Positions 157 to 24,945 of a stretch of DNA of 24,945 bases are shown here, one piece after another; position 1 is the stretch's first letter, and each line of letters starts with the position of its first letter. This DNA comes from a virus. The notes below the pieces were generated by a model, which saw only the letters and a program-made list of their open reading frames with translations, was not told where the DNA came from and ran no database searches. A program made the translations under genes and the position numbers. The stretch spans positions 1 through 24,945 of IMG/VR virus record IMGVR_UViG_3300012525_002487; one strand, given 5' to 3'.

Positions 157-326
157 CCTCTGGTTATAACATAAAAGTCGAAGGAGCCGAAGAACTTATT
201 TCAGAATGGGAACAAGGCAAACTTACAAAAGAAGAACTTACCGAACGACTAATGAATTTAGAAACAGTTCTTATAGACTTGACTAAGGTAATCGACCCTA
301 GTGAGTTTAAAGATAGCGAAGAATAA
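132..326 (+). CDS. Small acidic protein of unknown function
   Basis: This is a 64-aa protein starting at ATG 132 and ending in a highly acidic tail (PSEFKDSEE). A longer reading from TTG at 78 is possible, but it would add 18 residues that only shadow the upstream gene, so the ATG is preferred. The middle part (EELISEWEQGKLTKEELTERL) is predicted helical by eye. The gene overlaps the end of the preceding frame by 25 bases and ends 16 bases before the portal start, so all three are probably co-transcribed. There is no good Shine-Dalgarno sequence, which suits translation coupled to the upstream frame. I do not recognise the family. Position before a portal suggests a packaging or morphogenesis accessory, which is inference only. 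Confidence 0.6.
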   Translation: MEEGINILTSGYNIKVEGAEELISEWEQGKLTKEELTERLMNLETVLIDLTKVIDPSEFKDSEE

Positions 327-342
327 TGTGTGAAAATACCAA

Positions 343-2229: not shown

Positions 2230-2237
2230 TGCATATA

Positions 2238-2246
2238 GTTTAAATA
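2238..2246 (+). promoter_or_regulatory. Putative intergenic regulatory element, GTTTAAATA variant
   Basis: The sequence GTTTAAATA lies in the 51-base gap between the portal and the tail tube candidate, 43 bases before the next ATG. Its GTTTAAA core recurs in four other gaps of this window. The TTTAAATA part is one base away from the T4 late-promoter consensus TATAAATA, which is known from T4-like phages; whether this phage uses such promoters is unknown. Confidence 0.3.
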
Positions 2247-2280
2247 GTTATTAGAAATATTGCATTATACATAACGTACT

Positions 2281-2709
2281 ATGTTAGCATATAAGCCAAT
2301 TACTCAAGCCCAGTACTGGATCCAGGCTTCCCCCTTCCAGCACTACTTCACTACTTTCTCTGGAATCAGAGACACCTCTGGTACTACACAGTATGCCGAC
2401 GGTGTAAGAGGTCGTATTTTCCAGCTCAAGGGTCCTCGTACTCTTGCTGAAGTAACTCTTTCTGTTCCTTTCGACCCAGAAAAGCACGCCGATATTGTTG
2501 ACTTCTGGAAGACATACGATTGTTCATATATCACCCTTACAGTGACTCCTGTCAGCTGCGGTGAAGATCCAAGCCCACTTGGCAATAGAACAATTACAGT
2601 TCCCGATGCTCAGATTACATCACTGAACTTTGGTCAGGCAGACAGATCATCTACAAACGTATCGACTCTAGAGCTTACATTTGTAATGGATACATTTACC
2701 TATAACTGA
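2281..2709 (+). CDS. Putative tail tube (major tail) protein
   Basis: This 142-aa protein is a compact, beta-rich protein without a signal peptide or membrane segment. Its pattern fits phage tail tube subunits: an N-terminal hydrophobic strand with FTTFSGIRD, a Tyr-Ala-Asp-Gly segment before GPRTLAEVTLSVPFDPEKH, a Trp in DIVDFWKTY, and a C-terminal strand pair that begins RTITVPDAQITSLNF and ends VSTLELTFVMDTF. Tail tube proteins stack as rings to form the DNA channel of the tail. The gene follows the portal after a 51-base gap carrying a putative promoter element, and there is no strong Shine-Dalgarno before ATG 2281. Alternatives are a head-tail completion protein or another small beta-barrel virion protein. 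I am moderately sure that it is virion-structural and less sure that it is the tube. Confidence 0.6.
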   Translation: MLAYKPITQAQYWIQASPFQHYFTTFSGIRDTSGTTQYADGVRGRIFQLKGPRTLAEVTLSVPFDPEKHADIVDFWKTYDCSYITLTVTPVSCGEDPSPLGNRTITVPDAQITSLNFGQADRSSTNVSTLELTFVMDTFTYN

Positions 2710-2721
2710 TATAGGTATATA

Positions 2722-2785
2722 ATCGGGGGCGATGAAATGCAGATAAAAAATAGCTACGTAGTACGCGTAAACCCGCCCCTTCGAT
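2722..2785 (+). other. Imperfect inverted repeat in the leader of the cysteine-rich gene
   Basis: In the 96-base gap between the tail tube candidate and the next gene, ATCGGGGGCG (2722-2731) can pair with CGCCCCTTCGAT (2774-2785). That gives four and six base pairs separated by a TT bulge. The loop of about 42 bases contains the short palindromes TACGTA and ACGCGT. There is no T-run after it, so it does not look like a standard terminator. A structured leader or a processing site is possible. It ends just before the GGAG Shine-Dalgarno at 2791-2794. Confidence 0.35.
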
Positions 2786-2805
2786 TTGCCGGAGATAGAT
2801 AATCT

Positions 2806-3822
2806 ATGGTAAACTTATTCGGACAACAAAAGTGTCTAAATGAGGACCAAGTAGAGAGCCTTAAAGCCGTTAATATAAATACAGATCCTGTCTCTCCCAC
2901 TGACTCTTGTAAAGATAAAAATTCTTGCGGTATATCATTGCAAGAATTGTTGGATACCTATGAGTTTTATGAGTTTCAGAAGGGGGTATATAAGTCATGG
3001 GGCGGAATAGACTTTCCTTGGAAAATAACCCCTAGCACTTTTAACCTTAATTACGCAGAGACAAATGACAAATGGTCTATCTCTTTATATAGAGAAACAA
3101 TTGCGTATTTCGTAGGAGATCGGGTCTTATACATAGAGGACGACGGATATTTGATATCACTCTATGAAGCAACAGAAGATATCCCAGCTCTTTCTCCACC
3201 TTTAGATAGAACTAAGTGGGATAAAGTTTGCAGCATTAGAGTTTCAGAACCTGCGCAGCTACCCACAATAGAAGAACTAAAAGAAAGATATAGACCATAT
3301 GTTCTTGATTTATATCTTGAGAATTGGGGCGAAGCTGAGTCAAATTGGAACGAGGATCTTATTGTTCCAGATAGTGACCACTGGGAAACTTATAGAATTA
3401 AAAAAGACTATTATTACAAGCCCGGTGACTTTGTCCTAATAGAATCCGAGTGTAGTGATGCTTTTTGTCTTTGGATTAATATTAAGCCTATTCCAACTGG
3501 TGAATACTACGCAAGAGCTCATGCCAAGTTCCCGTATGATGAGCCGGTTGCCGATGATAATGGCGTAAAGTACTTGTATTGGGATAAGTTATATTGTGTT
3601 AACTCTGGGTATAATAAATGTTTAGGTCCGCAATCTGCCACAGGATTGCCAAATTATCAGTTTGTACAAATTGGATCAGAAGGTCATTACGTAGAGCAAC
3701 CTATTCCTTATTACGATTTAAAAGGTAACACCCTTTGTTGCGATAATCACGAGGACCTAAATGAAGCAGCAAAGATACAAACAAGAAAAGTATTAACTCA
3801 AGAAGAAATTGATAGCCTATAA
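2806..3822 (+). CDS. Cysteine-rich virion protein with carbohydrate-binding-like modules
   Basis: The 338-aa product has ten cysteines, far more than its neighbours, including CKDKNSC near residues 35-41 and a CC pair near the C-terminus. Residues about 98-143 (YFVGDRVLYIEDDGYLISLY, then ATEDIPALSPPLDRTKWDKV) resemble the short Trp-containing modules of the chitin/carbohydrate-binding CBM5/12 type: a Y-x-x-G-D-x-V strand, an aromatic Tyr, then a Pro and a Trp. A second, degenerate copy may lie at about 205-235 (YYYKPGDFVLIESECSD). A good Shine-Dalgarno, GGAG at 2791-2794, supports ATG 2806. The gene sits between the tail tube candidate and fibre genes and ends 14 bases before the next gene, so a tail, baseplate or fibre-attachment role is likely. 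I do not recognise the full-length family; the module comparison is by pattern only. Confidence 0.55.
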   Translation: MVNLFGQQKCLNEDQVESLKAVNINTDPVSPTDSCKDKNSCGISLQELLDTYEFYEFQKGVYKSWGGIDFPWKITPSTFNLNYAETNDKWSISLYRETIAYFVGDRVLYIEDDGYLISLYEATEDIPALSPPLDRTKWDKVCSIRVSEPAQLPTIEELKERYRPYVLDLYLENWGEAESNWNEDLIVPDSDHWETYRIKKDYYYKPGDFVLIESECSDAFCLWINIKPIPTGEYYARAHAKFPYDEPVADDNGVKYLYWDKLYCVNSGYNKCLGPQSATGLPNYQFVQIGSEGHYVEQPIPYYDLKGNTLCCDNHEDLNEAAKIQTRKVLTQEEIDSL

Positions 3823-3836
3823 GTTTAAGGTAAGAT

Positions 3837-4670
3837 ATGGCAAACGTATTTGGTGGTAATAGCTCCTCTGGAAATTGTGGCCCTAGCGGTGGTGGTATAA
3901 TTCAATCACCTAGACAACAGGTTGTTCCGTCTAGAGTTGTAGAGTCTAATCCAAATGTTTTTAGAGGCGGTACACAATCACCCGGCTCAATTAACCTAAG
4001 AGATTTTTACACAAAAAGAGAAGTTGATAAGTATTTAGATACAAAAGCAGACACTTCTAGTGTATATCAAAAAAATGCTTTATACACAAAACTAGAAATT
4101 GATCAGCTTATTGATGATCTAAACTTATCTGCATATGCATCTACTACTTATGTAAATAGTAGCGTATCTTCTCAATTTAGCCAAATCAATACGACCCTAG
4201 CAGAGAACTACTATCAAAAATCTGTTCTATATACAAAAACAGACGTAGATGGGTTGATTGCTGCGTTATCTATTACCGGAGACTACGTTTCTAAGTCGCC
4301 AACAAGTCTCACAGACGTAACAATTGATCCCGACTCTAATAACTTACCAGTAAGTTTAATTGTTCGTTCTTCAAACAACTCTGCAACTACAGAAGTTCAG
4401 AGATGGGAGAATTCTGCCACAGATTACCTCGGTGCAATTTACGCCGATGGTAAGGCAAAATTTGTAAATAAAGTATTTATAGGTGAAAATGTAAATACAG
4501 GAGAGGTTGCTCTTAATGTCAATAAGAAACGCATTGGCGACGTTGCCGATCCTGTAAATGAGTTTGATGCTGTAAATAAGCTCTACATGGAAACGTTTAT
4601 CACTGAGACAATTGATAATGTTCTCCAAGAATCCGATGAAAATTACTTAGTTGACGCTTTAGAATACTAA
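3837..4670 (+). CDS. Fibre-shaft protein with coiled YTK-x-(E/D)-(V/I)-D repeats
   Basis: The 277-aa product begins with a Gly/Ser-rich disordered region of about 25 residues. It then shows repeated heptad-like units: YTKREVDKYLDTKADTSSVY at about 58-77, YTKLEIDQLIDDL near 83-95, and YTKTDVDGLIAAL near 132-144. Such units are typical of trimeric fibre shafts. The last 60 residues include IGDVADPVNEFDAVNKLYME, which matches a common fibre signature where a D-P-x-x-x-x-D-A-x-N-K-x-Y segment precedes the terminus. AAGG in the TTTAAGGTAAGAT leader gives a usable Shine-Dalgarno for ATG 3837. The gene stops one base before the next ATG, so the two are likely translated together. Likely a short fibre, whisker or fibre connector; which one cannot be decided here. 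Confidence 0.65.
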   Translation: MANVFGGNSSSGNCGPSGGGIIQSPRQQVVPSRVVESNPNVFRGGTQSPGSINLRDFYTKREVDKYLDTKADTSSVYQKNALYTKLEIDQLIDDLNLSAYASTTYVNSSVSSQFSQINTTLAENYYQKSVLYTKTDVDGLIAALSITGDYVSKSPTSLTDVTIDPDSNNLPVSLIVRSSNNSATTEVQRWENSATDYLGAIYADGKAKFVNKVFIGENVNTGEVALNVNKKRIGDVADPVNEFDAVNKLYMETFITETIDNVLQESDENYLVDALEY

Positions 4671-4671
4671 A

Positions 4672-6684
4672 ATGGCAGGTTCACCAAGAGACGTAATCCT
4701 TCACAGAAGGTCTCAAGTTTTTAATAAAAGACCACTTTCCACGGACATCCAAGCCGGTGAGATTGCCGTAAATTACGACGAAGATGATATCTCTCTATAC
4801 ATTAGAGATAATCAAAACGATATTAGAAAAGTCGGTGGGGTTTTTTATTCTGCGGATCCACCAAACCCATCTGTAGCAATCGATGGCTGGCCAGATCTGT
4901 CTCATGGTGAGCTATGGCTAAAGAAACAAGATCCTTTAGACCCAGAAGGTAAAGTACAACTCTGGGTGTGGAATAAATACACCAACGGAGGTGCTGGTGA
5001 CTGGATTCACATCGGAGCCGGAACTTATGCAATCCTTGATGATTACTTAGATCAATTTAAAGACGGGGCAGATGGCGAAGATTATATTCACACAGAAAGA
5101 AACAGACTTAAGATAAATGATAAGACCGCGCTGAGAGGATACGCAACCACTATCCCTTCGGATGATGAAACAGATGTCTCCAAAGCAAATACTCTTGTCA
5201 TCAATGACGAGCACAACTTTGCCACCGGAGTTTTGCTTAATGCAAATAATCTTGTAATCGATTCTTCTGACATCGATGTTACTTCTGACGTGGTCACATT
5301 TAACTCAGAGTCGGCAATATCTTTTCAAACAGACTCTGTTACAGGAGCTACTGAATCCACATTCACATACAATGATCACGGGTTTTTCAACGGTGAAGAA
5401 ATATTTGTAGATCAGTATCTCAACGACGGAACAACACCCGGCGGCGTGGCTTCTGGTAACTATACTGTGGCTGAGGCTACGCTGCATACCTTTAAGCTCT
5501 ATGACGGAAGTAGTAATGTGCTTGCTACAGGAAACGTAAAAATTTCCTATTCTCCTAAGCTTATTTTAGATCAGAACTATAACGTAATTCAGTCTGGGAA
5601 TTTTAAAGTTAAAGAATTGGCCGATACTCCAGACACCTCTCAAATTGCAGAAGGCCGCTGGGATATTTATCAAAACACTCTTAATGGTAACGTAAGAGTA
5701 TATAGTCGGACTAATGGTGTTGTTTCAGAAGTGGGTACGTCTTCTGTGACCATTAACGTCAAAAACTCTGGAGGAGGGGCGATACCTGCGCTTACCCCCG
5801 TGTATTTTGTAGGTTTTGACCCGATCAAGAAAATGGCGACCGTCGGCATTGCTGATGCTGGCGCTAACTCTAGAATGAATGCCATTGGGGTCACTAACGC
5901 CGAAATCCCGGCAAATGGCTACGGAGTTGCAACGGTATACGGAGAGATGGTCGGTGTAGACACGACCGGGATCACTGGTGAGATTGGCGGGGCAGATGAC
6001 TCTGGAAGAATACTTTATGTGGCAAATGGTGGCGGGTTGACATTTACCCCACCGTCTGTCGTTGATGGCATAAGACAACCAGTTGCAATCTTATTCAACG
6101 AAGATGGCGCCAGCGGGAGGTTATTTGTAAACCACCCAGATGTTAATGATGTTGCTCAGCTTCAAGATGGGTATATGTGGATTGGGGTCACGGGCGATAA
6201 TGCCGTAGCTCATAGAATTAACACATATAATTTCAGCACATTTGTTGCTCAAGATGGGGAGTATGAGATCAATCTCTCCGACGAGATTAAGTTTGGTGCG
6301 TATGATTTTCTTTGGGATGGCAACTCTGCAAGTAAGACTCAAACCAAAGTAAGCACTTCTGATCAACCAGCAGGGACATCTTTCTCCACTTCTACAGTAA
6401 TTGATTCCTTCTCTACAACATATCGTTCTGCTAAGTTTTTTATTCAGTTAAGCCTTGGCGGCCCAGGTTTCACTCCAAATTACCAAATTATTGAGTTTTT
6501 TGTGGTGCACAATGGCACCGATGTTGATCTTGTGGATTACGGCACAGCATCTACGCTTAATGCCCGTATGGGAGATTTTTCTGCTGGGATTAATGGATCT
6601 AATGTTGAGATATACTTCTCTAGATACGAAGCCACTAAAGGCGAGATTGAGATAAAGGCTGTAAGAACTGCTGTACTTTCATAA
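4672..6684 (+). CDS. Tail fibre protein with conserved N-terminal anchor and beta-rich C-terminus
   Basis: The 670-aa product opens with a phage fibre anchor motif: VILHRRSQVFNKRPLSTDIQ, then AGEIAVNYDEDDISLYIRD, within residues 8-45. This resembles the H-R-R-S...P...L..GE.A.N pattern of many tail fibres. Residues about 360-475 form a beta-rich domain (VKNSGGGAIPALTPVYFVGF...GVTNAEIPANGYGVATVYG) like the capped-barrel segments of head- or tail-fibre proteins. The last 120 residues (SAKFFIQLSLGGP, IIEFFVVHNG, MGDFSAGINGSNVEIYFSRY) match a beta-sandwich that I recall from marine phage fibre proteins. The gene starts one base after the previous stop. It is followed by a 67-base gap with a putative promoter element. 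A receptor-binding or structural fibre role is the best reading; no enzymatic motif was seen. Confidence 0.75.
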   Translation: MAGSPRDVILHRRSQVFNKRPLSTDIQAGEIAVNYDEDDISLYIRDNQNDIRKVGGVFYSADPPNPSVAIDGWPDLSHGELWLKKQDPLDPEGKVQLWVWNKYTNGGAGDWIHIGAGTYAILDDYLDQFKDGADGEDYIHTERNRLKINDKTALRGYATTIPSDDETDVSKANTLVINDEHNFATGVLLNANNLVIDSSDIDVTSDVVTFNSESAISFQTDSVTGATESTFTYNDHGFFNGEEIFVDQYLNDGTTPGGVASGNYTVAEATLHTFKLYDGSSNVLATGNVKISYSPKLILDQNYNVIQSGNFKVKELADTPDTSQIAEGRWDIYQNTLNGNVRVYSRTNGVVSEVGTSSVTINVKNSGGGAIPALTPVYFVGFDPIKKMATVGIADAGANSRMNAIGVTNAEIPANGYGVATVYGEMVGVDTTGITGEIGGADDSGRILYVANGGGLTFTPPSVVDGIRQPVAILFNEDGASGRLFVNHPDVNDVAQLQDGYMWIGVTGDNAVAHRINTYNFSTFVAQDGEYEINLSDEIKFGAYDFLWDGNSASKTQTKVSTSDQPAGTSFSTSTVIDSFSTTYRSAKFFIQLSLGGPGFTPNYQIIEFFVVHNGTDVDLVDYGTASTLNARMGDFSAGINGSNVEIYFSRYEATKGEIEIKAVRTAVLS

Positions 6685-6698
6685 CCTCCCGTTCTTTT

Positions 6699-6718
6699 GT
6701 TTAAAGTCTTAAATAGAC
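6699..6718 (+). promoter_or_regulatory. Putative intergenic element, GTTTAAAGT followed by a GTCT/AGAC inverted repeat
   Basis: GTTTAAAGT at 6699-6707 runs into GTCTTAAATAGAC at 6706-6718, whose ends GTCT and AGAC are inverted copies. It lies in the 67-base gap before the 78-aa gene, with 53 bases from the motif start to the ATG. CTTAAATA inside it resembles the T4 late-promoter box TATAAATA. The same core precedes four other genes in the window. Confidence 0.35.
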
Positions 6719-6751
6719 AATATACAATTTGGCACAGGGGACAGTGAACCT

Positions 6752-6988
6752 ATGGCAACAAATAAGCATTTTCACGTCAGGCATGGCTTGACTGCGGGTA
6801 CTGGAGTAGATAGCAGCGGAACTCCAACCAGAGAGGTAATTACAAACACTGGTCAGTTAGTTGATGTCGGGGATCTTACAGCATTAACTACGAGCGTTAA
6901 GACAAATGTAGTCGCTGCAATTAACGACTTAAATAGCGGCAACGCAACTGTGGACGATGTCATTGCCTTGGCAATTGCACTAGGATAA
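6752..6988 (+). CDS. Small fibre-associated structural protein
   Basis: The 78-aa product has an N-terminus (MATNKHFHVRHGLTAGTGV) like the anchor of marine phage fibres, and a C-terminal helix-forming part (TTSVKTNVVAAINDLNSG) resembling the K-T-x-x-V-x-A-I-N-x-L segment common at the ends of small phage fibre or baseplate proteins. It is the first gene after a putative promoter element, with a GGGGA stretch upstream as a possible Shine-Dalgarno. It is followed 15 bases later by another small structural gene and then by the 1077-aa fibre, so it may connect or assemble that fibre. Function is inferred from context and sequence pattern only. Confidence 0.6.
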   Translation: MATNKHFHVRHGLTAGTGVDSSGTPTREVITNTGQLVDVGDLTALTTSVKTNVVAAINDLNSGNATVDDVIALAIALG

Positions 6989-7003
6989 GGAAAACAAACT
7001 GTC

Positions 7004-7384
7004 ATGGCAAATACCTTCAAATCATATTCAAAATCATCCGTTGGTACCTCAACTGAAACGGCATATCAAGTTGAACTGGGCGGCGCTTCAGGAAAAACAA
7101 CAATTGTTATTGGCATTTCATTATCAAACATTGCCACCACACCGATTAACGTAGACGTGCAGATTGACCGCCCTGCAACAGGAACAACTGCGGCTCCTTC
7201 AGATGATGTTTACTTGGCAAAAAATATCCCAATTCCGTCTGGCTCGACGTTGGAGATTATGGCCGGGCAGAAACTTATCATGGAATATAACGGCTCGGCG
7301 GGGGCGGGTGATAAGATCACTGTGACCTCAGACACAGTCGACTCTCTCGATGTAATTGTAAACGCTCTAGAAATCACCTCATAA
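7004..7384 (+). CDS. Small beta-sandwich virion protein
   Basis: The 126-aa product has a pattern I recognise from marine phage virion proteins: TTIVIGISLSNIATTPINVD, then YLAKNIPIPSGSTLEIMAGQ, then KITVTSDTVDSLDVIVNALE at the end. Alternating hydrophobic residues suggest a small beta-sandwich without catalytic residues. An AAGGA sequence about 12 bases upstream is a fair Shine-Dalgarno for ATG 7004. It sits 15 bases after the 78-aa gene and 18 bases before the large fibre, inside one apparent transcription unit. A fibre-base, decoration or baseplate component is most likely; the exact position in the virion is unknown. Confidence 0.6.
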   Translation: MANTFKSYSKSSVGTSTETAYQVELGGASGKTTIVIGISLSNIATTPINVDVQIDRPATGTTAAPSDDVYLAKNIPIPSGSTLEIMAGQKLIMEYNGSAGAGDKITVTSDTVDSLDVIVNALEITS

Positions 7385-7402
7385 GAAGGAGTTATATTAA
7401 CC

Positions 7403-10400
7403 ATGGCATATATCGGCAACGACGTAGACGCAATCTTTATCCCCGAGAGTATAAACACCTCGACTAGTCTGAGGATTAATGGTGGTGGATTGACCCAGAC
7501 AGGTGGTGATGTAAACTTTGATAGCGGAACGTTATTTATCGACGAGGACACAAACAGAGTTGGTATTGGCACCATTGACCCACAATACACACTTGACTTC
7601 GGAAAAACATCAGCATCCACCATTCGTCTTATAAGTGAACACAACGGCACTGCAATCCGTGTTGGTGCTGGTGGTGGCGACAATAATGTAACACTATTGA
7701 GAGTTGATGGTGCGGGTGTACTAGATGGTGTTGGAGAATCCGATTCTGCTGCATATGGATTCTCCATTAAGTATATGGGGGGTCGTCTTGGGAATAATAA
7801 CTCGTTGTCTATTTTTTCTGATAATCAAGAAGGGTCTCAAATTGAGGCAGTAACAATATCCCAAGATGGAAGTGTCGGCATCGGGACTGATAATCCACAA
7901 GAAAAATTAGAAATAGAAGAAGGAAATATAAGATTATCTACAGATATTGGAGGAACAGTTCCAAAATATGCTATAAACTGGACTGGCGGTGGTGCTGGTC
8001 AAGTAGCGGTATTTTCCGCAAATACTTCCACTGGCGAAGTAAGAATGGGTGCAGATAATAGTTCTGGAACGTATTTTACTACGTTATATTCTAATGGTAA
8101 TGAAAGACTTCGTATAGATTCAAGTGGATGGGTTGGAATTGGAACGAATGCTCCATTACACACTGATAGTGCCTTAGATATTGAAGGATCAATACCAGTT
8201 CTTAGAATTAGTTCTACTGGAAGTTATGGGGCTTTAACGTTTGCTGATGCTGGCGATGATCATTCAGTTGGTGGTATCGTTTATGATCATACTAATGATT
8301 CTTTAATGCTTTATGGATATAATAATGAAGAAAGACTTCGTATAACTTCTGATGGAGATTTGATACTTAAAACTTCTGGTACAATGCCAGTTGGTAAGTT
8401 TGTTTTTAGGGAAGGATCTGATGATGCTTTTAGTTTTAGAACAACTGGAGCAAATGGAGCATTTGAAATATATGATGAATGGGATGATCAGACAAGATTA
8501 CATATAGATTCAAGTGGCAATGTTGGCATCGGCCTTATAAGTCCAGCGTACAAATTACATGTACTAGGAAAAGCATATCTTGAAGATCTTAATGGGGCTG
8601 TTATAAATAATTCTGGAGCAAATTTTGGTTTTACAGCTTTAACGCTACACAACTCTGGAAGCGCAATAAGTTCTGCCCATAATGCTCAAATACTCTTTGA
8701 TATAAATGGTGGAGCAACTAACGCAACCAGGGCAAAGATAATTGGCGGAAAACAAGATACTGGAACTAGCAGTGGTTATCTTGCATTCCAAACATTAACA
8801 AACGGAGCTTTAACAGAGAAGCTTTTTATAGACTCTAATGGAAATATAAAAATTGATAGTAGTGGTGATGGACAAGATATCCAAATATTACCGCATTCTG
8901 CAAATAGTGGACATGGACAAATTTATTTACGTGGCAATGCATCTGGGGAGTACTCTTCGATAAAATTAAATCACTACGGTTACGCAGATTATGTTATCTC
9001 TGCAGGTCAATCTGGACTTGGATTGTTTAGTATTACTAAAACTGCTGGTGGTTCTGATGGTATTATAATTAATAGCACTGGCAATGTCGGCATCGGCACC
9101 ACAGATCCTCAAAATAAATTACATGTATATACAACTTCTGGAAATAATGGAATAGTAGTAGAAAATGCATCTACAGCAAATATTGCTTTTACTGGTGCTA
9201 AAAATGGAGAAGCCACGGTTCAGATAGGTCAATTTGGATCTAGCGCAACCGGAACTACTTTTGGATTAACTAATTCTAATCTATCGGTCATATATACAAC
9301 ATCATACAGTACAACACATCCATCTGCTCTGGCTATAGGTACTGTTAGTAATATTCCCGTGGTTATTGCCGCAAATAATACCGAAAGAATAAGAATTACT
9401 GGAACTGGCAATGTCGGCATCGGCACTGATAATCCAGCACAAAAACTAGATGTAGGAGGAAATGTGCGTTTAGGAACGCTTTCCGCAGCTGGTGATTTTA
9501 CGGATAGTGGTTCAACTGGTACTCGTCATTTAACCATAGGAGCAGATAATGGAGGGGATGCTTTATTAGTAACTCATGCTTCTGGATATGGCGTTGGTTA
9601 TTTTGGATACGAGGCAGGCGGAGATAGATTGATCATTGCTTGTGATAGTGGTGGAGGAAATAATAAAATAGATTTTTCTGTCAACGCAGGCACAACAGCA
9701 AACGGAACAACTGATAACATCAACGGTATAGCTCCTGCTATGCGAATTGCTGCCTCTGGCAATGTCGGCATCGGCACCGATAATGCAAGTCAAAAATTAC
9801 AAATATATGGATCAGATAGTCAATATATTTCTATAATATCAAGTGACTCTGGAAATACTGGCGTACTTTTTGGAGATTCAGACAGAGTTGATTCTGGTTA
9901 TATACTGTATGGTAACTCATCCGATACACTCATTTTAGGAACAGGCGGAAATATTTCTGGATCTGGAACTGGAAAACTAACAATATTAAGCGATGGTAAT
10001 GTTGGTATTGGCACCGATAACCCCCCAGTAAAATTAGATGTTGATGGTTCACTACAACTAAGGGCATCAGGTAATTATACAACATATGCTACAAGAATTT
10101 ACTCTCGTCTTGATTCTACGCATTGCTCCGTAATTGAATCATATTTGAATAACAGCACAGCGTTTGAAATGATGGGATCTTACGCTGATGCTGGTGGTTC
10201 TAATCCTAGAGTTGTCATATCAGCAGGTGGGCAAAAAGTCGGCATTGGAGTTATTAACCCAAGTTATAACCTTGAAGTAAACGGGTCATTCGCTGCAACA
10301 ACTAAATCGTTTATTATTGACCACCCAACCAAAGAGGGATACAAACTCCGCCATGGCTCCCTTGAAGGCCCAGAAAATGGCGTTTATGTACGAGGCCGGA

Positions 10401-10636
10401 GCACCGAGACAATTATTTCCCTTCCTGATTACTGGGTGGCCTTGGTCGACCCTGACTCAATCACCGTGTCCCTAACCCCCATAGGCCCAAGTGGGGCGCC
10501 GAGGGTTGAAAGAATAGAGAATAATAAAGTATATATCTTCTCTGAAGACTCTCGCCCTCTTGATTATTTTTACATGGTCAATGCAGAGCGCGTAGACGTT
10601 GACCCTCTCGAAATAGAAATCCCACCCACCAACTGA
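7403..10636 (+). CDS. Long tail fibre with nine VGIGT-type repeats and a conserved tip
   Basis: The 1077-aa product is a long trimeric-type fibre. The N-terminus MAYIGN resembles that of the 967-aa fibre at 17580. Nine copies of a VGIG(T) motif, often within GNVGIGTDNPxxKL, occur at about residues 53, 158, 242, 373, 561, 670, 787, 866 and 946. Such units punctuate beta-stranded shafts of phage fibres. The last 110 residues, starting FIIDHPTKEGYKLRHGSLEG and continuing PENGVYVRGRSTETIISLPD, form a conserved tip that in marine phages follows such shafts. A full GAAGGAG Shine-Dalgarno at 7385-7391 strongly supports ATG 7403. The core (about 7890-10270) is AT-rich, whereas the tip-coding end is GC-richer, which suggests modular exchange. 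Repeated DNA around the VGIGT codons is shared with the 967-aa fibre gene. Confidence 0.85.
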   Translation: MAYIGNDVDAIFIPESINTSTSLRINGGGLTQTGGDVNFDSGTLFIDEDTNRVGIGTIDPQYTLDFGKTSASTIRLISEHNGTAIRVGAGGGDNNVTLLRVDGAGVLDGVGESDSAAYGFSIKYMGGRLGNNNSLSIFSDNQEGSQIEAVTISQDGSVGIGTDNPQEKLEIEEGNIRLSTDIGGTVPKYAINWTGGGAGQVAVFSANTSTGEVRMGADNSSGTYFTTLYSNGNERLRIDSSGWVGIGTNAPLHTDSALDIEGSIPVLRISSTGSYGALTFADAGDDHSVGGIVYDHTNDSLMLYGYNNEERLRITSDGDLILKTSGTMPVGKFVFREGSDDAFSFRTTGANGAFEIYDEWDDQTRLHIDSSGNVGIGLISPAYKLHVLGKAYLEDLNGAVINNSGANFGFTALTLHNSGSAISSAHNAQILFDINGGATNATRAKIIGGKQDTGTSSGYLAFQTLTNGALTEKLFIDSNGNIKIDSSGDGQDIQILPHSANSGHGQIYLRGNASGEYSSIKLNHYGYADYVISAGQSGLGLFSITKTAGGSDGIIINSTGNVGIGTTDPQNKLHVYTTSGNNGIVVENASTANIAFTGAKNGEATVQIGQFGSSATGTTFGLTNSNLSVIYTTSYSTTHPSALAIGTVSNIPVVIAANNTERIRITGTGNVGIGTDNPAQKLDVGGNVRLGTLSAAGDFTDSGSTGTRHLTIGADNGGDALLVTHASGYGVGYFGYEAGGDRLIIACDSGGGNNKIDFSVNAGTTANGTTDNINGIAPAMRIAASGNVGIGTDNASQKLQIYGSDSQYISIISSDSGNTGVLFGDSDRVDSGYILYGNSSDTLILGTGGNISGSGTGKLTILSDGNVGIGTDNPPVKLDVDGSLQLRASGNYTTYATRIYSRLDSTHCSVIESYLNNSTAFEMMGSYADAGGSNPRVVISAGGQKVGIGVINPSYNLEVNGSFAATTKSFIIDHPTKEGYKLRHGSLEGPENGVYVRGRSTETIISLPDYWVALVDPDSITVSLTPIGPSGAPRVERIENNKVYIFSEDSRPLDYFYMVNAERVDVDPLEIEIPPTN
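8516..9777 (+). repeat. Near-identical DNA repeats coding for GNVGIGT
   Basis: A 20-base segment beginning GGCAATGTCGGC and ending ATCGGCAC is identical at 9080-9099, 9407-9426 and 9758-9777, with a close variant at 8516-8535. The same 20 bases recur at 19716-19735 in a second fibre gene, with a one-mismatch copy at 20040-20059. Neighbouring sequence has diverged, and other VGIGT units use different codons, so DNA identity here exceeds what protein conservation needs. Confidence 0.85.
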
Positions 10637-10642
10637 GTTACT

Positions 10643-12934
10643 ATGTCACAACACATCGGTCCTAGAACAATCAGCGCTCAAGGCGGCAGTATTAAGCGAG
10701 TAGGGAACTACAGAATCCATACATTCCCCTCTGAATTGGTGACTGATGGATTGGTATTGAGTCTTGATGCTGGTGATCCAAGATCATATCCAAGTAGTGG
10801 AACAACTTGGACTGATTTGAGTGGTAATGGGAATAATGGAACGTTAGTTAACGGACCTACGTATAGTAATGCCGATGGAGGAAGTTTAGTTTTTGATGGT
10901 ACTGATGATGCTATAACTGTTGCAACAGGACTACAAAGTCAGTTGCAATCTGGTGCGACATTGGAAATGTGGATTAAAAAAGATTCTAATAAGAGTGCGG
11001 AATTTTTAAAAGTTGGAGATAGTAATGTTGATGAGCCAGGAGCACAATCTATTTGGTATGCAAGTGGAATTTTAAGATTTCATAGTTTTATAAACGGTGC
11101 ATCTAGAAGACATGTTTTATTGCAGCATACCATTTCTCTTGGCGATGGAAATTGGAGACATATAGTTTGTACATTTAATGGTAACATTGTAGATGGTGGA
11201 ACTGCTTCTCTCTATATCAATGGATCGTTAATAACATCTACTACAAATGAAAGTACTAATTCATCTTTTGGAGCTCCTGGATTTTCTCATACTGGTAGTG
11301 GTTACGCCCACGATGGATCAGCTTCTGTATTAAGAGTATACAACCGCGCCTTATCCGCCGCAGAAGTTGCACAGAACTACGACTCCCTGAGAGTACGCTA
11401 TGGCACATATACCAATACCTTCACGCCTATTTGTGCCGGTGGGGAAGGGAAGGTAGAGGTGCTGTGTGTTGCTGGGGGAGGATCAGCTGGGGGAGCATAT
11501 TATCATGGAGGCGGCGGTGGTGCTGGCGGATTAATTTACAACTCTGCATTTTCTGTTGGTTCAAGTACTGGAGTATCTGTATCTGTAGGTAGGGGTGGTT
11601 ACACTCCATTTAGTGACTCCACCACACACACAAAAGGAGAAAATGGAGTAAATTCTGCATTTGGAACTTTAACCTCAGTTGGCGGTGGCGGTGGCGGAGG
11701 ATTCGCAGGGGCTGGAGAAGGCGGAAAAAACGGAGGCTCTGGCGGCGGTGCAGGAAATAGTTCTGGAAGTGCTGGAGTTGGGGGGTCTGGAACTTCTCTT
11801 CAGGGTAATGATGGCGGAGATACATCTTCTAATACTGGTGGAAATAAAGTTGGTGGCGGAGGTGGTGGTGCTGGCGGACCTGGAGAATTTGGTGGTATAG
11901 CAACTGGAGGTAATGGAGGAAGTGGTCTTGCATATTCTATATCTGGAACTTCGCAGTATTATGCAGGGGGAGGCGGAGGAAGTACAGAAGTAAGTACGCA
12001 ATTTACTAAAGGTGGTTCTGGAATTGGCGGAGATGGTAATTGGAGCGATGGAACAAATGGTATTCCAAATACAGGAAGCGGCGGTGGTGCTGGAGAAAGA
12101 ATATCTCCAGCAATTTCTGGAAACGGCGCTAATGGAACTGTAATCGTCAGATATCCTGCAACCGACTACAACGTCGAGGTACTCGTAGTTGGTGGAGGAG
12201 GATCTGGGGGATCTGGTAGTTTATATGCATATTCTGGCGGCGGCGGAGGTGCTGGAGGATTTATTTATAGATCCTCTATAATAGTATCTTCTGGTGAAAA
12301 CATAAAGATTTCTGTTGGTAAAGGCGGAGCGGGGTTAAGTAGTGCTTCCTATGATCCATCTCCATTTGGTACTACTGGTAATTCAGGATCTAATTCAAGA
12401 TTCGGTAATTTAATTGCCATTGGAGGCGGCGGTGGCGGTGGCGGCCTAACCTATGACGGTATCTCTGGTGGATCAGGTGGTGGTGGCGGTGGTCGTAATT
12501 CTACCGGTGGATCTGGAATTGCTGGTCAAGGTTTTGCTGGTGGAAGTAGTAGTGAACATGGAGATACCACAACTTATGGTGCTGGTGGCGGTGGTGCTTC
12601 AAGTGCCGGTGGAGATGCTAGTAATACAACTACAGCAGCTGGTGGAGAAGGAAAATCAAACTCTATTACTGGTTCATCAGTAACTTATTCTGTTGGTGGA
12701 GCTGGTGGACACAATGCTGGAACTGGAAGCGGTACTCCTGTCACCAACAGTGGATCTGGGTCACGAGGCGGCGTTGGCAACGGAGGTGGTAGTCAATCTG
12801 GAGCTGATGGCATTGTAGTTGTTGCATATAAAGGCCCGCAGAGAGGAATTGGTGGTACAATAGACACTACATCAAGACCCGGCTACACCCTCCATATCTT
12901 CACAACCGCCGGGTCTGATACATTCATACCATGA
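10643..12934 (+). CDS. LamG plus double glycine-rich domain adhesin
   Basis: The 763-aa product starts with IGPRTISAQGGSIKRVGNYR, then IHTFPSE, the usual lead into a phage glycine-rich domain. A LamG/concanavalin-like domain follows at about residues 32-245, with LSLDAGDPRSYPSSGTTWTD, LSGNGNNGTL and LRVYNRALSAAEVAQNYDSL. Two glycine-rich domains follow (about 265-505 and 510-735), each starting with a VEVL(C/V)VxGGG strand and full of GGGGG runs. These resemble polyglycine folds of adhesins such as T2 gp38, as a comparison only. A short IHIF-type strand (GYTLHIFTTAGSDTF) closes the protein. LamG and polyglycine modules commonly bind surface glycans or proteins, so a receptor-binding role is likely. 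The start follows the previous stop by six bases; the end overlaps the next gene by ATGA. Confidence 0.82.
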   Translation: MSQHIGPRTISAQGGSIKRVGNYRIHTFPSELVTDGLVLSLDAGDPRSYPSSGTTWTDLSGNGNNGTLVNGPTYSNADGGSLVFDGTDDAITVATGLQSQLQSGATLEMWIKKDSNKSAEFLKVGDSNVDEPGAQSIWYASGILRFHSFINGASRRHVLLQHTISLGDGNWRHIVCTFNGNIVDGGTASLYINGSLITSTTNESTNSSFGAPGFSHTGSGYAHDGSASVLRVYNRALSAAEVAQNYDSLRVRYGTYTNTFTPICAGGEGKVEVLCVAGGGSAGGAYYHGGGGGAGGLIYNSAFSVGSSTGVSVSVGRGGYTPFSDSTTHTKGENGVNSAFGTLTSVGGGGGGGFAGAGEGGKNGGSGGGAGNSSGSAGVGGSGTSLQGNDGGDTSSNTGGNKVGGGGGGAGGPGEFGGIATGGNGGSGLAYSISGTSQYYAGGGGGSTEVSTQFTKGGSGIGGDGNWSDGTNGIPNTGSGGGAGERISPAISGNGANGTVIVRYPATDYNVEVLVVGGGGSGGSGSLYAYSGGGGGAGGFIYRSSIIVSSGENIKISVGKGGAGLSSASYDPSPFGTTGNSGSNSRFGNLIAIGGGGGGGGLTYDGISGGSGGGGGGRNSTGGSGIAGQGFAGGSSSEHGDTTTYGAGGGGASSAGGDASNTTTAAGGEGKSNSITGSSVTYSVGGAGGHNAGTGSGTPVTNSGSGSRGGVGNGGGSQSGADGIVVVAYKGPQRGIGGTIDTTSRPGYTLHIFTTAGSDTFIP

Positions 12935-13678: not shown

Positions 13679-16600
13679 ATGGCAGGCGAACACTTAAAGA
13701 GAACTCATACTTCAACGGGTAGTAAGAAAAAATTTACATATTCTTTTTGGTTTAAAAGTAATATTACTTTTACATCAAACTCATATTTTTTTGGTCTTGG
13801 CGGCGATGGATCAAGTTATGATGACTCAAGATTATATGTAAGTGACGGATCGTCCCGTGCCCTTTCATACGTTGCCTCTGATGTTGGCATTTCTGATGTA
13901 CTTACAGATGACGCAATTCGGGATTATGGTAGTTGGTATCACTTTATGGTTGTAGTTGATACTACTATTGATCATGCCACAAACAGAGTGAAATTATACA
14001 TTAATGGTGTAAGAAAAGATGTAAGTTATACTACTACTGCCGCCCAAAATGCTAATATTTCTCACAACACTGCTGGCGAAATATTGCTACTAGGATCTTA
14101 TAATGGTTCTAGCACCTTTACTGCCGAAGGAAATTACTCGGATGTTTTTAATGTAGATGGTCAGGCATTAACTCCCGATGTGTTTGGTTTCTATAAGGAC
14201 GGAAACGGTTATATCTCTGCCGGGACAACTCAGTCTACCGATTTCAGGCCGGGGCAATGGGTCCCTCACTCCCCTCGCAGAATTAAGTCCGAGATCAACC
14301 GCCGAGGCGGATTTGGAGTTAATGGGTTTTATCTGCCTATGAATAGCTCCAATAATTTTGGCGCGGATTTTCATTGCGAGCCGGATACAATCTTAAAGCT
14401 CAAAAGCTCCCTCCCACAGCCCAAAGCCGAGATCGATGGCGTTGGAGATTATACAGGGGCGCTCCGCGAAGACCCACTCAAGGACTATTTGGTGCTGGCG
14501 ATTCCTGGGGTGAGCGGTGGATTGCAGAATGGTTTTGGAGATTACTCTGCTGCGATTAGAGGCAGTGGAACTCCAAAAACATTAACTTTAAATGGTGGAA
14601 TTGTTACTTCCTCAACTCACTCCTATTATGGAAGTGCTGGATATTTTAATAATGGTGGGGCTAGTGGATCTCAATTTTTAAATTGCACAGACTCTGCTTT
14701 TGCGTTAGGAACTTCTAATTTTACATTAGAAGCTTGGATATATCCGACATCAATATATAATTTTTGGACTTTACTTTCAACAAGACCAAGTGACGGACCA
14801 TTCAGTGATGCATATCATATAGGAATAGATGGAAATGGAGCAATAGGACTTTATAGTGATCAATATGATGTAAAAAGTGCAAATGGAATAATCATCTCTA
14901 ATCAATGGAGTCATATTGCAGCATGTAGAATAGGGAACACATTAACTTTGTATGTTAATGGTGTTGCAGTTGCAGTTAATACAAATTATACAAAGAATTT
15001 AACAAGAAATGCTTTGACTATAGGAAGATTGCAGAATTTTGGTACTAATTTAGAATCTGCAACGGGTTACATACAAGATCTTCGCATCTACAAAGGTGTA
15101 GCAAAATACACGGGTGGTTTTGATGCTCCGAAACCTTATACACCAGTAGGTATTGGAACTTGGAGAGCAGTTCCTGATTGCACTGCGAATAACTTTGCTA
15201 CTTTGAATGCTGTTGATAATAACGGTGGAGTTATTACTAATGGAAATTTAACATACACAGATGATGGTAGTAGCAATTGGAATAATTCAAGAGCAACTAT
15301 TGGTGTTTCAAGTGGAAAATATTATTGGGAAATGAGAGCAGATGCAATAAGTTCTGTCATGTGTGCTTCTATTGCTGGACCATCTGGAAATGACTCTACT
15401 GATGGAGCAAGTTTGGGATTTCTCCCAGGACAATCTGAAGGTGCTGGTGTTACATATTATAATAATGGTTATCTATATCATGCTGATAACCAAGGTGGTG
15501 GATCTGCTTGGGGTGCATCATATGTGAATGGTGATATTATAGGTATTGCTCTTGATCTGGATGATGCTGGTGGCAAGGTTTGGTTTTCTAGGAATGGTTC
15601 TTGGCAAGTATCAGGCAACCCATCAACTGGAGCAAACCCTGCGAGAAGTGACTTAAAAACTTATGCAAATACTTGGTTCCCAATATCAGGAACATATTAT
15701 ATTAATACAGTACAATCATTTAACTTCGGTCAAAACCCAACATTCTCTGGAAACACCACAGCAGGAACCTACACGGACAGCAACGGCAAAGGACTCTTCA
15801 AGTATGAACCTCCAAGTGGTTTCCTAGCATTATGTGAGGACAACCTCCCAGCTCCAACAATTAAAGATCCTGGTGAGCACTTTAAGACTGTGCTTTATAG
15901 TGGTGACAATAGTGCTGGTAGAAGAATTAATGTCGGTTTCCAACCAGATTTTATTTGGTTTAAATCAAGAAATGCAGCAACTTCTCCTGTTCTTGTTGAT
16001 AGTGTAAGAGGATTTGGGCATCTTAATTCTGATGGAACCAATACAGAATCAACTTCAGGAACATTATATGTTGGTGGATATGCAGACAATGGATTTGATC
16101 TGAATGATGGATCGCTTAGTGGTGGCAATACAACTGGAAGAGATTATGTGGCATGGTGTTGGAAAGCAGGTGGGGAGGCAGTGACAAACACTGATGGTAG
16201 TATCACATCACAGGTGAGTGCCAATCAGGATGCTGGGTTTAGTATTGCTACATATACAGCAACTGGAAGCACTGGAAGTATAGGACATGGACTTGGAAAA
16301 ACACCTGCCTTTGTGATTACAAAACACAGAAATCTTGACACTCATTGGAGAATTTGGCATAAAGGATTGAGTGGATATAATTATACTTTATTCTTCACTA
16401 CGGGAGCAGAGCAAGTTCAACCAGCATATAGTGCTTTACCAACAGATAGTGTTATTAATCTTTCTGGCGATTTAACTGGTTCCTATAATTTCGTAACCTA
16501 TTGTTGGGCAGAAGTAGAAGGTTTCAGTAAGTTTGGAAGTTATGTGGGTAATGCAAGTGCTGATGGTCCATTTGTCTATTGTGGATTTAAACCTGCTTGG

Positions 16601-16711
16601 TTGATGGTGAAGAGAGTTACTACTGGCGCTAATGAACCTTGGTCAATTTATGATAGTTCTAGAGGATCAACCAATCCAAATCCTAAAGGTTTATATGCAA
16701 ATATACTTTGA
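13679..16711 (+). CDS. Large LamG/LamG/SPRY adhesin, C-terminus lost to a frameshift
   Basis: The 1010-aa frame carries, in order: a LamG-like domain (about 15-180, starting KRTHTSTGSKKKFTYSFWFK); a linker whose coding DNA is GC-rich (about 160-285); a second LamG domain (about 310-490, with FTLEAWIYPTS and GYIQDLRIYKGVAKYTGGF); a SPRY-like domain (about 530-690, with SSGKYYWEMRADAISS, and VWFSRNGSW); and a DUF7483-like C-terminal domain from about 730 (PDFIWFKSRN, RDYVAWCWKAGG, GHGLGKTPAFVITKHR, CGFKPAWLMVKR). GAGGAG at 13663-13668 is a strong Shine-Dalgarno for ATG 13679. The frame stops at TGA 16709-16711 right after GLYANIL. The expected end of this domain continues in another frame to 16860, so the gene carries an apparent indel. 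It is probably a glycan-binding adhesin of the tail. Confidence 0.82.
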   Translation: MAGEHLKRTHTSTGSKKKFTYSFWFKSNITFTSNSYFFGLGGDGSSYDDSRLYVSDGSSRALSYVASDVGISDVLTDDAIRDYGSWYHFMVVVDTTIDHATNRVKLYINGVRKDVSYTTTAAQNANISHNTAGEILLLGSYNGSSTFTAEGNYSDVFNVDGQALTPDVFGFYKDGNGYISAGTTQSTDFRPGQWVPHSPRRIKSEINRRGGFGVNGFYLPMNSSNNFGADFHCEPDTILKLKSSLPQPKAEIDGVGDYTGALREDPLKDYLVLAIPGVSGGLQNGFGDYSAAIRGSGTPKTLTLNGGIVTSSTHSYYGSAGYFNNGGASGSQFLNCTDSAFALGTSNFTLEAWIYPTSIYNFWTLLSTRPSDGPFSDAYHIGIDGNGAIGLYSDQYDVKSANGIIISNQWSHIAACRIGNTLTLYVNGVAVAVNTNYTKNLTRNALTIGRLQNFGTNLESATGYIQDLRIYKGVAKYTGGFDAPKPYTPVGIGTWRAVPDCTANNFATLNAVDNNGGVITNGNLTYTDDGSSNWNNSRATIGVSSGKYYWEMRADAISSVMCASIAGPSGNDSTDGASLGFLPGQSEGAGVTYYNNGYLYHADNQGGGSAWGASYVNGDIIGIALDLDDAGGKVWFSRNGSWQVSGNPSTGANPARSDLKTYANTWFPISGTYYINTVQSFNFGQNPTFSGNTTAGTYTDSNGKGLFKYEPPSGFLALCEDNLPAPTIKDPGEHFKTVLYSGDNSAGRRINVGFQPDFIWFKSRNAATSPVLVDSVRGFGHLNSDGTNTESTSGTLYVGGYADNGFDLNDGSLSGGNTTGRDYVAWCWKAGGEAVTNTDGSITSQVSANQDAGFSIATYTATGSTGSIGHGLGKTPAFVITKHRNLDTHWRIWHKGLSGYNYTLFFTTGAEQVQPAYSALPTDSVINLSGDLTGSYNFVTYCWAEVEGFSKFGSYVGNASADGPFVYCGFKPAWLMVKRVTTGANEPWSIYDSSRGSTNPNPKGLYANIL

Positions 16712-16860
16712 TTGAAAATGATGTTTCTGGTAGATATAAAGACTTTTTATCTAATGGATTTAAGGTAAGAGGAACTAGTGGAGAACAAAATAGTGATGGA
16801 ATAACTTACATCTTCGCTGCCTTCGCTGAGTCTCCGTTCCAAACTGCAAACGCTAAATAA
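16705..16860 (+). pseudogene. Frameshifted C-terminal remnant of the LamG/SPRY adhesin
   Basis: Reading from ACT at 16705 in the -1 frame gives 51 codons ending at TAA 16858-16860. The peptide includes SGRYKDFLSNGFKVRGTSGE, then ITYIFAAFAESPFQTANAK. The segment DFLSNGFKVR followed by YIFAAFAESPF-x-x-A-N-A is the typical ending of DUF7483-like phage proteins, so this is the missing end of the preceding gene rather than a separate one. Removing the AT repeated in AATATACT at 16700-16707, or adding one base, would restore one continuous protein. TTG 16708 could in principle start it alone, but there is no Shine-Dalgarno. Confidence 0.85.
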
Positions 16861-22072: not shown

Positions 22073-24472
22073 ATGGCAGACCAAAGAGCGCTTATTGGAA
22101 CATCGCTAGATCAGGTATCCACAAACGCCATGTTGGGGACTTTGGCATTCCAAGATGCTGACGGAGCGTATATTGAGACAATACGCGGGGCAACGGCGCT
22201 AGAAGGGTTTAATAAGGATATTGCCGATACGGCCGTAGATGTGTTTGTTTACGATACTTCCAAAGACTCCGATGGCGGAGCATGGCGCTATCGCACCCAG
22301 CACACTTCCTGGTACAATGAGACCCTAAATACATCGACGCGCGGAGCGCGAAGAGAGTTTCCTGCTGTTGCTGTGATTGTCACTGATAGTTCATACCATA
22401 TTAAAATTTATGATGGCGATGACCCTGATATGCCATTATGGATGGAGTTTCAGGATATTGTAAATGGCAGCGGATTAATACCGTCTCTGAGTGCTAAACC
22501 TGATTCTATTGCTGCTTTGAATGGGATAATAGCAATTGGAAATTTAGCAGGAACCGTTAATAGTGGTCAAGCAGGTGTTTTAAAACTTAATTTCATTGAA
22601 GACTCTGCTTACAGGCATATGCAATCTGGGTCTTCAACTTATAATGGAAAATGGATAGGGGGAGGACTTGCAAATAGAAATACTGGAACACCAACTACTG
22701 GAAGTTGGGACGATAGTGTTGGTTATATTGTAGATAATGACGTAAACGATGTAGCAATGACGGTCCTCCCAAACGCACCCATTGACTCTACTACTGGACT
22801 TCCAATCCCCACTATTGCCGTTGCGACTGATGGTGGTGTGAGTGTGATTAAGGATGATGGGACTGTAAACAGTGTTTCTCATGCTTACGGGGATTCAATG
22901 AAAATTGATGTTGATGGGGATGTTCTTTTAGCAACTCATAATGGTCCAACTAGTGGTCAGTCTGCTGAAACTTTTAATCTAATAACATTAACACAATTAG
23001 GAGACGGTGGTAGTGGACCTGCTCATGGAGATAATGCTATAGGCACTGATGAAACATATTATGGGTACGGGTCAATTATTAGTGGTGCAAATTACATGCC
23101 TTTTGTAACTCCAAATTTTGGAATTACAGTCAATCCTATAGTAAGAGGTAATGATATTTTCTTTGGAGATGATTTATTAATTCATATTGAAGAAGATAGA
23201 ACTTTTCCTGCAAACGGAATGTCCAACTACATTACTTCTGACTACAACACAGGATGGATGCACGGAGACTGCAAAGGTGCCTTCCTGTCTGATACTGATG
23301 ATACGGATGTAACTGGGACAGAACTATGGCCAGAAGGAGATTTTGCAGATGCTAATGAATGGTCTTCTGCTGCAGCTCAATGGACAATATCTGGTGGAAC
23401 TGCAACAGTTAATTACACTGGTGGTGGATATTCGTTTTTAGGTAGTTCTACCACAACACTAACAAATGGAAAAAAATATATTTTAAGTTTTACTATAAGT
23501 AATTATGGTGCAGGTGGTAGACTTGAAGCAGGTCAAGCAAACTCTAGTAATATTCCAATTGGTTTTAGTGCAAATGGATCATATACTCAACTAATAACTT
23601 ACACTGGAACCACCGGATATGGGTTGGGGATGTATGCTTATGGTGGTGGTACTGTAAATTTCACATTGGATAATTTATTTCTCCGAGAGTTGGAAGAAGA
23701 AGACCGTTCAGTAAACAATACTGGTCTCGCAGTTTACGGAACAATCACCAAGAGTGCCGTTGCCACTGGGGCGGAGTTGGTTGGTTATAGTGGGTTTAGT
23801 GGTAGTAATTATTTGCAAAGTCCGCAAGGATCCATATCCGTAGGGACAAGTGATTTCTGCTTATCTATTTGGTATAAACGTTCCACTGGCGACGAAATTA
23901 ATGTATATTTTGATTTCATTGAAGGTACTACAAATGGATTTAGACTTGTTCCTGGAAACTATATAAATGATATCTATTTGATTAATGGTAATTTTTCAAC
24001 TTATGTAGTATTTCCAGGAAAAGCAATAGGATCAGGTGTATGGACGCATCTATCCGTTGTAAGAGACTATGGAACAAATGTCAAAGTATATCAAAATGGA
24101 ATTTTAGTGGGAACAACAACCACATTTGCGAGCACGAATTATAATGCTGGGGGAGTTTTTAAAGTTAGTGGTTCGCCAGATTCATCAACTTGCATTTCTT
24201 TGATCAGATTATCAGCATCAGCACCTTCCGCAGAACAAATCAAAAAGATGTATGAGGACGAAAAGGTACTCTTCCAAGAGAATGCTGCTTGTACCTTATA
24301 TGGTTCATCAGACGTTGTAACGGCCTTGGCCTACGATGACACCACCTCCTTGCTCCATGTCGGTACCTCATCTGGCCGTTCTGAGTTTAAAGGGCTAAGA
24401 AGAGTGGGTAATACCACAACGGCGGTAACGACCGCCATCTCAGCATCTAATGGCCTTGTAGCGGAACAATAA
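22073..24472 (+). CDS. Multidomain adhesin: propeller-like, CBM-like and LamG domains
   Basis: The 799-aa product has a first half (about 1-415) with repeated strands and segments such as IPTIAVATDGGVSVIKDDGT, which look like blades of a propeller. A CBM4/9-like sandwich follows at about 416-531 (ISGGTATVNYTGGGYSF, NGKKYILSFTISNYGAGG). DRSVNNTGLAVYGTI leads into a LamG domain at about 573-720 (SVGTSDFCLSIWYKRSTGDE, GVWTHLSVVRDYG). The last 70 residues have IKKMYEDEKVLFQENAACTL, YGSSDVVTALAYDDTTSLLH, then VGTSSGRSEFKGLRRV, a conserved ending I recall from several marine phage adhesins. The protein is probably a glycan-binding virion component. The gene starts 9 bases after the previous stop, with no clear Shine-Dalgarno. 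Confidence 0.8.
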   Translation: MADQRALIGTSLDQVSTNAMLGTLAFQDADGAYIETIRGATALEGFNKDIADTAVDVFVYDTSKDSDGGAWRYRTQHTSWYNETLNTSTRGARREFPAVAVIVTDSSYHIKIYDGDDPDMPLWMEFQDIVNGSGLIPSLSAKPDSIAALNGIIAIGNLAGTVNSGQAGVLKLNFIEDSAYRHMQSGSSTYNGKWIGGGLANRNTGTPTTGSWDDSVGYIVDNDVNDVAMTVLPNAPIDSTTGLPIPTIAVATDGGVSVIKDDGTVNSVSHAYGDSMKIDVDGDVLLATHNGPTSGQSAETFNLITLTQLGDGGSGPAHGDNAIGTDETYYGYGSIISGANYMPFVTPNFGITVNPIVRGNDIFFGDDLLIHIEEDRTFPANGMSNYITSDYNTGWMHGDCKGAFLSDTDDTDVTGTELWPEGDFADANEWSSAAAQWTISGGTATVNYTGGGYSFLGSSTTTLTNGKKYILSFTISNYGAGGRLEAGQANSSNIPIGFSANGSYTQLITYTGTTGYGLGMYAYGGGTVNFTLDNLFLRELEEEDRSVNNTGLAVYGTITKSAVATGAELVGYSGFSGSNYLQSPQGSISVGTSDFCLSIWYKRSTGDEINVYFDFIEGTTNGFRLVPGNYINDIYLINGNFSTYVVFPGKAIGSGVWTHLSVVRDYGTNVKVYQNGILVGTTTTFASTNYNAGGVFKVSGSPDSSTCISLIRLSASAPSAEQIKKMYEDEKVLFQENAACTLYGSSDVVTALAYDDTTSLLHVGTSSGRSEFKGLRRVGNTTTAVTTAISASNGLVAEQ

Positions 24473-24475
24473 CCC

Positions 24476-24880
24476 ATGGCAGTCAGAGTTAACAAACCAG
24501 CATTTAATATCAGAGAGAAACTTTCAGAACTCGAGCGGCCTATTGGCCTTAAGGGCGGAGAGATCATGTCGTCAGAAACCGCCCAAGAGGCGAGGGAGTT
24601 GGTCAGTGCTGGTCGGAAGAATTTGATTATTAATGGCGATATGAGGATTGCTCAGAGAGCAACCTCAGCAGATGTTCCCACTGCTGGTGCTATTGGAACA
24701 TTAGATAGATGGAATAGTTGGATTAACTATAATGCTGGGGCAGTTGTTATGTCCCAAGAAACTGATGCTCCTGCAGGATTTTACAAATCTTTGAAGGTCG
24801 TTAGAAATGATTCTTCATCTCCAGCGCAATATTTTTTTTTCTTGGTCAAAAAATTGAAGCACAAAATATTTCACAATTAG
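24476..24880 (+). CDS. Adhesin N-terminus, cut short by a frameshift at a T9 tract
   Basis: The 134-aa frame begins with the conserved fibre anchor MAVRVNKPAFNIREKLSELE, then RPIGLKGGEI, followed by AGRKNLIINGDMRIAQRATS, a very common phage adhesin segment leading into a carbohydrate-binding sandwich. The start, three bases after the previous stop, is supported by that conserved N-terminus. The frame runs correctly to SLKVVRNDSSSPAQY, then passes a run of nine T (24832-24840) and becomes LVKKLKHKIFHN before TAG 24878-24880. The natural continuation lies in the -1 frame and stays open to the window end. The full protein therefore extends beyond this window, either with one indel or with slippage at the T tract. 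Confidence 0.8.
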   Translation: MAVRVNKPAFNIREKLSELERPIGLKGGEIMSSETAQEARELVSAGRKNLIINGDMRIAQRATSADVPTAGAIGTLDRWNSWINYNAGAVVMSQETDAPAGFYKSLKVVRNDSSSPAQYFFFLVKKLKHKIFHN

Positions 24881-24945
24881 AAACAGGAACTTCTTCTGCA
24901 AAACCATTCACTATTTCTTTTTGGGTAAAGTCAAACAGACCAGGC
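24841..24945 (+). pseudogene. Continuation of the last adhesin in the -1 frame (partial)
   Basis: From 24841 the -1 frame reads LGQKIEAQNISQLETGTSSA, then KPFTISFWVKSNRPG, to the last base with no stop. The pattern L-x-Q-x-I-E-x-x-N then FTISFWVKS is the standard strand pair of this adhesin family, so this is the real continuation of the gene starting at 24476. The switch happens at the T9 tract. Seven or ten T would join the two parts in frame. Confidence 0.82.

Follow-up and report, generated by a model that had tools for sequence, protein, structure and literature searches.

Where a frame break is a singleton and not one of a cluster of homologues interrupted at a shared site, it has been ascribed to an indel mutation or a sequencing error (PMC3711429). 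In Campylobacter phages, receptor-binding genes are known to vary in phase through a homopolymer, there a polyG tract (Sorensen et al. 2021, as cited in PMC10579305). Moreover, slippage at a U run yields the long product of Shigella mxiE, and slippage at an A9 run has been described for Thermus dnaX (PMC1088944). Here we report that the last adhesin gene of a marine cyanophage contig loses its reading frame at a T9 tract, and that this singleton frame break is probably a net -1 indel in the homopolymer, unprogrammed, and due either to a recent slippage mutation or to a contig-end error.

The window, i.e., the whole stretch of DNA that was analysed (24,945 bases), is the complete IMG/VR record IMGVR_UViG_3300012525_002487, which is classed as linear, and its ends are therefore contig ends. 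It is a fragment of a marine Aurunvirus (S-TIM5-like cyanomyovirus): its portal protein shares 84-86% identity with those of the cyanophages S-TIM5, S-TIM54, S-TIM61 and S-TIM66 (genus Aurunvirus), and the gene order is partly kept between the window and these phages. From ~7.4 kb on, the majority of the genes encode adhesin-like structural proteins. Two sister contigs, 3300007345_000067 and 3300006810_000304, are 99.2% identical to window positions 1-8158 without gaps, and both end before the T9 tract; no record of a near-identical phage was found to span the tract. Beyond position 8158 the window diverges from its sister contigs (L085/L087) within an adhesin gene and partly returns at 9407-10902, a pattern that is module swapping in the adhesins of near-identical phages. 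A nucleotide search of phage records returned nothing matching, an exact DNA scan of IMG/VR with two 26-28-base pieces around T9 gave no match, and the last adhesin has no homologue in the complete Aurunvirus genomes of S-TIM5/54/61/66.

The 0-frame ORF of the last adhesin (24476-24880; like all features given here on the + strand) encodes a truncated product of 134 aa and is closed by a TAG stop (24878-24880). The T9 tract occupies positions 24832-24840, ~105 bases from the contig end, and the 0-frame codons here are TAT (24830) TTT TTT TTC. Similarity to the adhesin family is found in the 0 frame 5' of T9 and in the -1 frame 3' of it. Specifically, the -1 frame has its final upstream stop at 24808-24810, is free of stops from 24841 to the window end (24841-24945), and translates 3' of T9 as FLGQKIEAQNISQLETGTSSAKPFTISFWVKSNRPG, which matches the family. 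The frame break is bounded to 24811-24877 (67 bases), and T9, which is the longest homopolymer and the sole run of at least 8 in the window, is the only slippery sequence inside this interval. The first-pass annotation had stated that T9 switches the frame of the last adhesin, which holds, and had named T TTT TTC (24835-24841) as a possible site of -1 slippage; the heptamer is in X XXY YYZ phase.

When ~1.4 Mb of related phage loci were scanned all against all for frame switches, the window break had by far the best support (14 + 5 protein alignments), and the other sense-strand candidates were only two, in locus L128 and in S-TIM54. With the similarity left aside, 35 open codons in the -1 frame would occur by chance with p ~0.03. 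A first-order Markov model predicts, per window, 0.19 T runs of at least 9 and 0.68 runs of at least 9 of any base, and on this model T9 is thus unremarkable by itself. Real related phages have fewer such runs than the model predicts, and A/T runs of at least 9 within a long ORF are absent from ~1.4 Mb (1.36 Mb) of related phage loci; a 9-base run within the 67-base interval is therefore not a coincidence, and we conclude that the frame change was caused by T9 or by the loss of one of its bases.

The 0-frame product comprises a conserved N-terminal anchor and the start of a CBM4-like module. When read through the break, the protein matches phrog_4492 (tail fiber) over residues 42-155 (E 1e-17), and the family match is present on both sides of the break. 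As predicted from its sequence, the gene encodes a tail-fibre adhesin that is mosaic and contains a CBM4-like carbohydrate-binding module, in agreement with its initial designation as an adhesin. The upstream adhesin gene (LamG/ConA-like; 22073-24472), which has a LamG-like domain, was used as synteny anchor for the orthologous slot. In other contigs the slot 3' of this type of gene begins with a shared anchor of about M-x-V-R-V-x-K-x-x-F-N-x-R-E-K-L, followed either by a CBM4-like module (346-417 aa in total) or by an unrelated shorter one (~157-195 aa), and this combination of one anchor with differing modules marks the slot as an exchangeable mosaic adhesin cassette. Loci L161, L168, L169 and L171 have the ~20-residue anchor common to the slot and then unrelated short modules.

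The position of the break within the fold was taken from a structure predicted for the intact homologue L172 (388 aa, mean pLDDT 70). The best Foldseek match of this model to CBM4 structures has an E-value of 1e-6, and CBM_4_9 is matched by three of the 13 aligned homologues. The fold predicted for the adhesin family, as modelled on L172 only, is that of a carbohydrate-binding beta-sandwich. The break maps to approximately residues 121-128 of L172, in a predicted strand, and on this model most of the sandwich and the entire C-terminal part would be missing from the 0-frame product.

The 13 homologues (346-417 aa) are uninterrupted and most lie directly 3' of the same neighbour gene. The genes found directly 3' of homologues of the neighbour are complete, nearly all with AEL at the end, and the ortholog in contig 3300047550_004845 continues in one frame. 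Among 79 homologous IMG/VR loci, the alignments cross the tract position in one frame and no run longer than 6 bases is present at this position. The first-pass annotation had named homologues lacking a T tract at this point as an outcome that would count against it; no homologue has the tract, which argues against a conserved phase switch and against a conserved programmed -1 frameshift. The homologues compared are ~35-53% identical, and at this distance it is a conserved device that is ruled out, not one private to the lineage of the window. The family loop was also used to estimate the original tract length (the mode is 18 residues, the window would have 16 or 15) and favours neither length.

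The best explanation of the break is thus an unprogrammed indel. In the related phages the tail-fibre adhesin is encoded by a single uninterrupted ORF of ~350-415 aa, and in this one contig a net -1 indel at the T homopolymer probably breaks the frame after residue ~119, within a strand of the CBM4-like beta-sandwich, leaving a 134-aa product without most of the binding module. The indel could have originated as a recent DNA replication-slippage mutation in the window virus or in a variant of it, or as an error in the homopolymer, which lies only 105 bases from the contig end, and we consider these two origins about equally likely. By the distinction drawn in PMC3711429, a break that stands alone among intact homologues is best ascribed to a mutational indel or to an error of sequencing, and the good family match of the -1 frame indicates that the break is recent or not real; we infer that the indel has no selected role. 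The first-pass annotation had listed three options without choosing, i.e., a homopolymer indel, phase variation and programmed -1 frameshifting. The first is supported by our data, while the other two, as conserved devices, are disfavoured by the absence of the tract from the homologues; transcriptional slippage at T9 had been omitted and the proximity of the contig end had not been weighed.

Some observations bear on the two origins. The match to the two sister contigs is free of gaps over 8,158 bases at 99.2% identity, which makes an assembly rich in indels throughout less likely and somewhat favours a true variant. The window also contains a second adhesin with a broken frame (LamG + DUF7483; 13679-16860), as the first-pass annotation had noted. 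Its shift is likewise in the -1 direction, at 16687-16711, though without a homopolymer: the 0 frame stops at 16709-16711 and the -1 frame, which continues TLIENDVSGRYKDFLSNGFKVRG...FQTANAK, runs to a TAA at 16858-16860, while its homologues are continuous. Moreover, S-TIM5 gp129 and gp128 (NC_019516.2, L083:7980-14062) correspond to one ORF in S-TIM61 (OP053361.1, L084:8000-14083); three positions differ in this region and one of them is a one-base loss from a G run in S-TIM5. The second broken adhesin and the G-run loss support a mutational origin, and adhesin frame breaks may thus recur for a reason. A structural gene of S-TIM54 (L081 ~34891, OP053362.1, UYE97279/UYE97280) is apparently split by a frame switch and is a single gene in S-TIM66. 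Separately, two IMG/VR contigs contain G runs of 25-26 bases (L102:1-25 and L148:1322-1347), one of them at a contig end; these are probably sequencing artefacts, which suggests that homopolymer errors enter the collection.

Among the alternatives, phase variation survives best but is unlikely. Here the T tract would be a hypermutable switch at which replication slippage toggles the adhesin frame, giving mixed virions with and without the receptor-binding module. A tail fibre with a carbohydrate-binding module is a suitable kind of gene and the tract length is plausible; phase-variable polyG receptor-binding proteins in Campylobacter phages, as cited in PMC10579305, offer a precedent. The length of an intergenic, non-coding T tract also differs between relatives, with T11 in S-TIM5 (NC_019516.2 18637-18647) and T9 in S-TIM61 (OP053361.1 18459-18467). 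However, the tract at the site is absent from every homologue (up to ~50% identity), only a single tract length was seen, and the absence of A/T runs of at least 9 from long ORFs in the ~1.4 Mb of related phage DNA indicates that T tracts are not generally employed in the adhesin genes of these phages. The T9-T11 runs that were inspected in 12 related records either come after hairpin-like intergenic sequence or adjoin genes. If a phase switch were long-standing, or a -1 frameshift programmed, the tract would be expected to be conserved or to recur, and since none is seen both are disfavoured. That T9 reversibly switches one receptor-binding module of a cyanophage with several adhesins, perhaps with some leakage by transcriptional slippage, accordingly has a slim chance of being correct. 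Were it so, a clonal burst would carry virions with different adhesin sets, which would bear on how cyanophages hedge across Synechococcus receptors, and reads showing a mixed T-tract population would amount to a homopolymer phase switch of a cyanophage receptor-binding protein, the mechanism cited for Campylobacter phages.

It is less probable still that the frame is restored by transcriptional slippage, in which RNA polymerase would stutter on T9 such that some mRNAs are in frame and a fixed T9 genome gives some full-length adhesin. In many bacteria a run of nine T is prone to slippage (PMC1088944), and the transcriptional realignment sites listed in PMC3711429 include Tn with n>8. Furthermore, an A/T run of at least 9 is present at the frame junction and downstream structure is not needed. 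Yet T9 is not conserved in any homologue, and some slippage would occur at any T9, so a mutation may be partially rescued without a selected device. Slippage at T9 could rescue some full-length protein if the mutation is real.

Programmed -1 ribosomal frameshifting on T TTT TTC is very improbable. The heptamer is correctly phased, but it appears to be a by-product of the tract: no stimulator was found, neither an SD-like sequence just 5' of the site on the coding strand nor structure in the RNA 3' of T9 (z = +1.1, with only 105 bases downstream covered), as the first-pass annotation had indicated in seeing no clear downstream hairpin, and the site is not conserved, T9 being absent from the homologues. 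A reading of T9 as the U tract of an intrinsic terminator, with the gene truly ending here, has next to no probability and was rejected: several T9-T10 runs in S-TIM-type genomes do directly follow GC-rich hairpin-like intergenic sequence, but there is no terminator-like hairpin 5' of T9 and coding similarity resumes immediately 3' of it.

Returning to the unprogrammed indel and its place among the known systems, the window resembles Shigella mxiE and Thermus dnaX in that a 9-base A/T run lies within a gene whose longer product needs an extra mRNA base; it differs in that the run is not conserved and in that the window is known from DNA alone. With the polyG genes of Campylobacter phages, as cited in PMC10579305, it shares a phage adhesin gene in which the frame depends on how long a homopolymer is, whereas its tract is T instead of G, is not conserved, was seen at one length only, and is without counterparts in the genes of its relatives. 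The window would work like the polyG switch only if the tract length varies in the population, and we do not claim membership in that class. As in CBM4/9-type tail-fibre adhesins of marine phages (phrog_4492; Pfam PF02018), an N-terminal anchor is joined to a beta-sandwich module in a conserved slot 3' of a LamG-type structural gene, while the window copy, unlike these, has lost its frame and is truncated where the contig ends. If relatives lack the tract, a frame lost at a homopolymer close to the end of a single metagenomic contig is accordingly not to be taken as regulation. Finally, no feature was found that distinguishes the adhesin gene of the window from singleton frameshifted genes (in GeneTack terms, PMC3711429), and its break is close to a contig end; it shares with them the intact homologues, the break at a homopolymer and the lack of a conserved site, and on present evidence the window break is ordinary.
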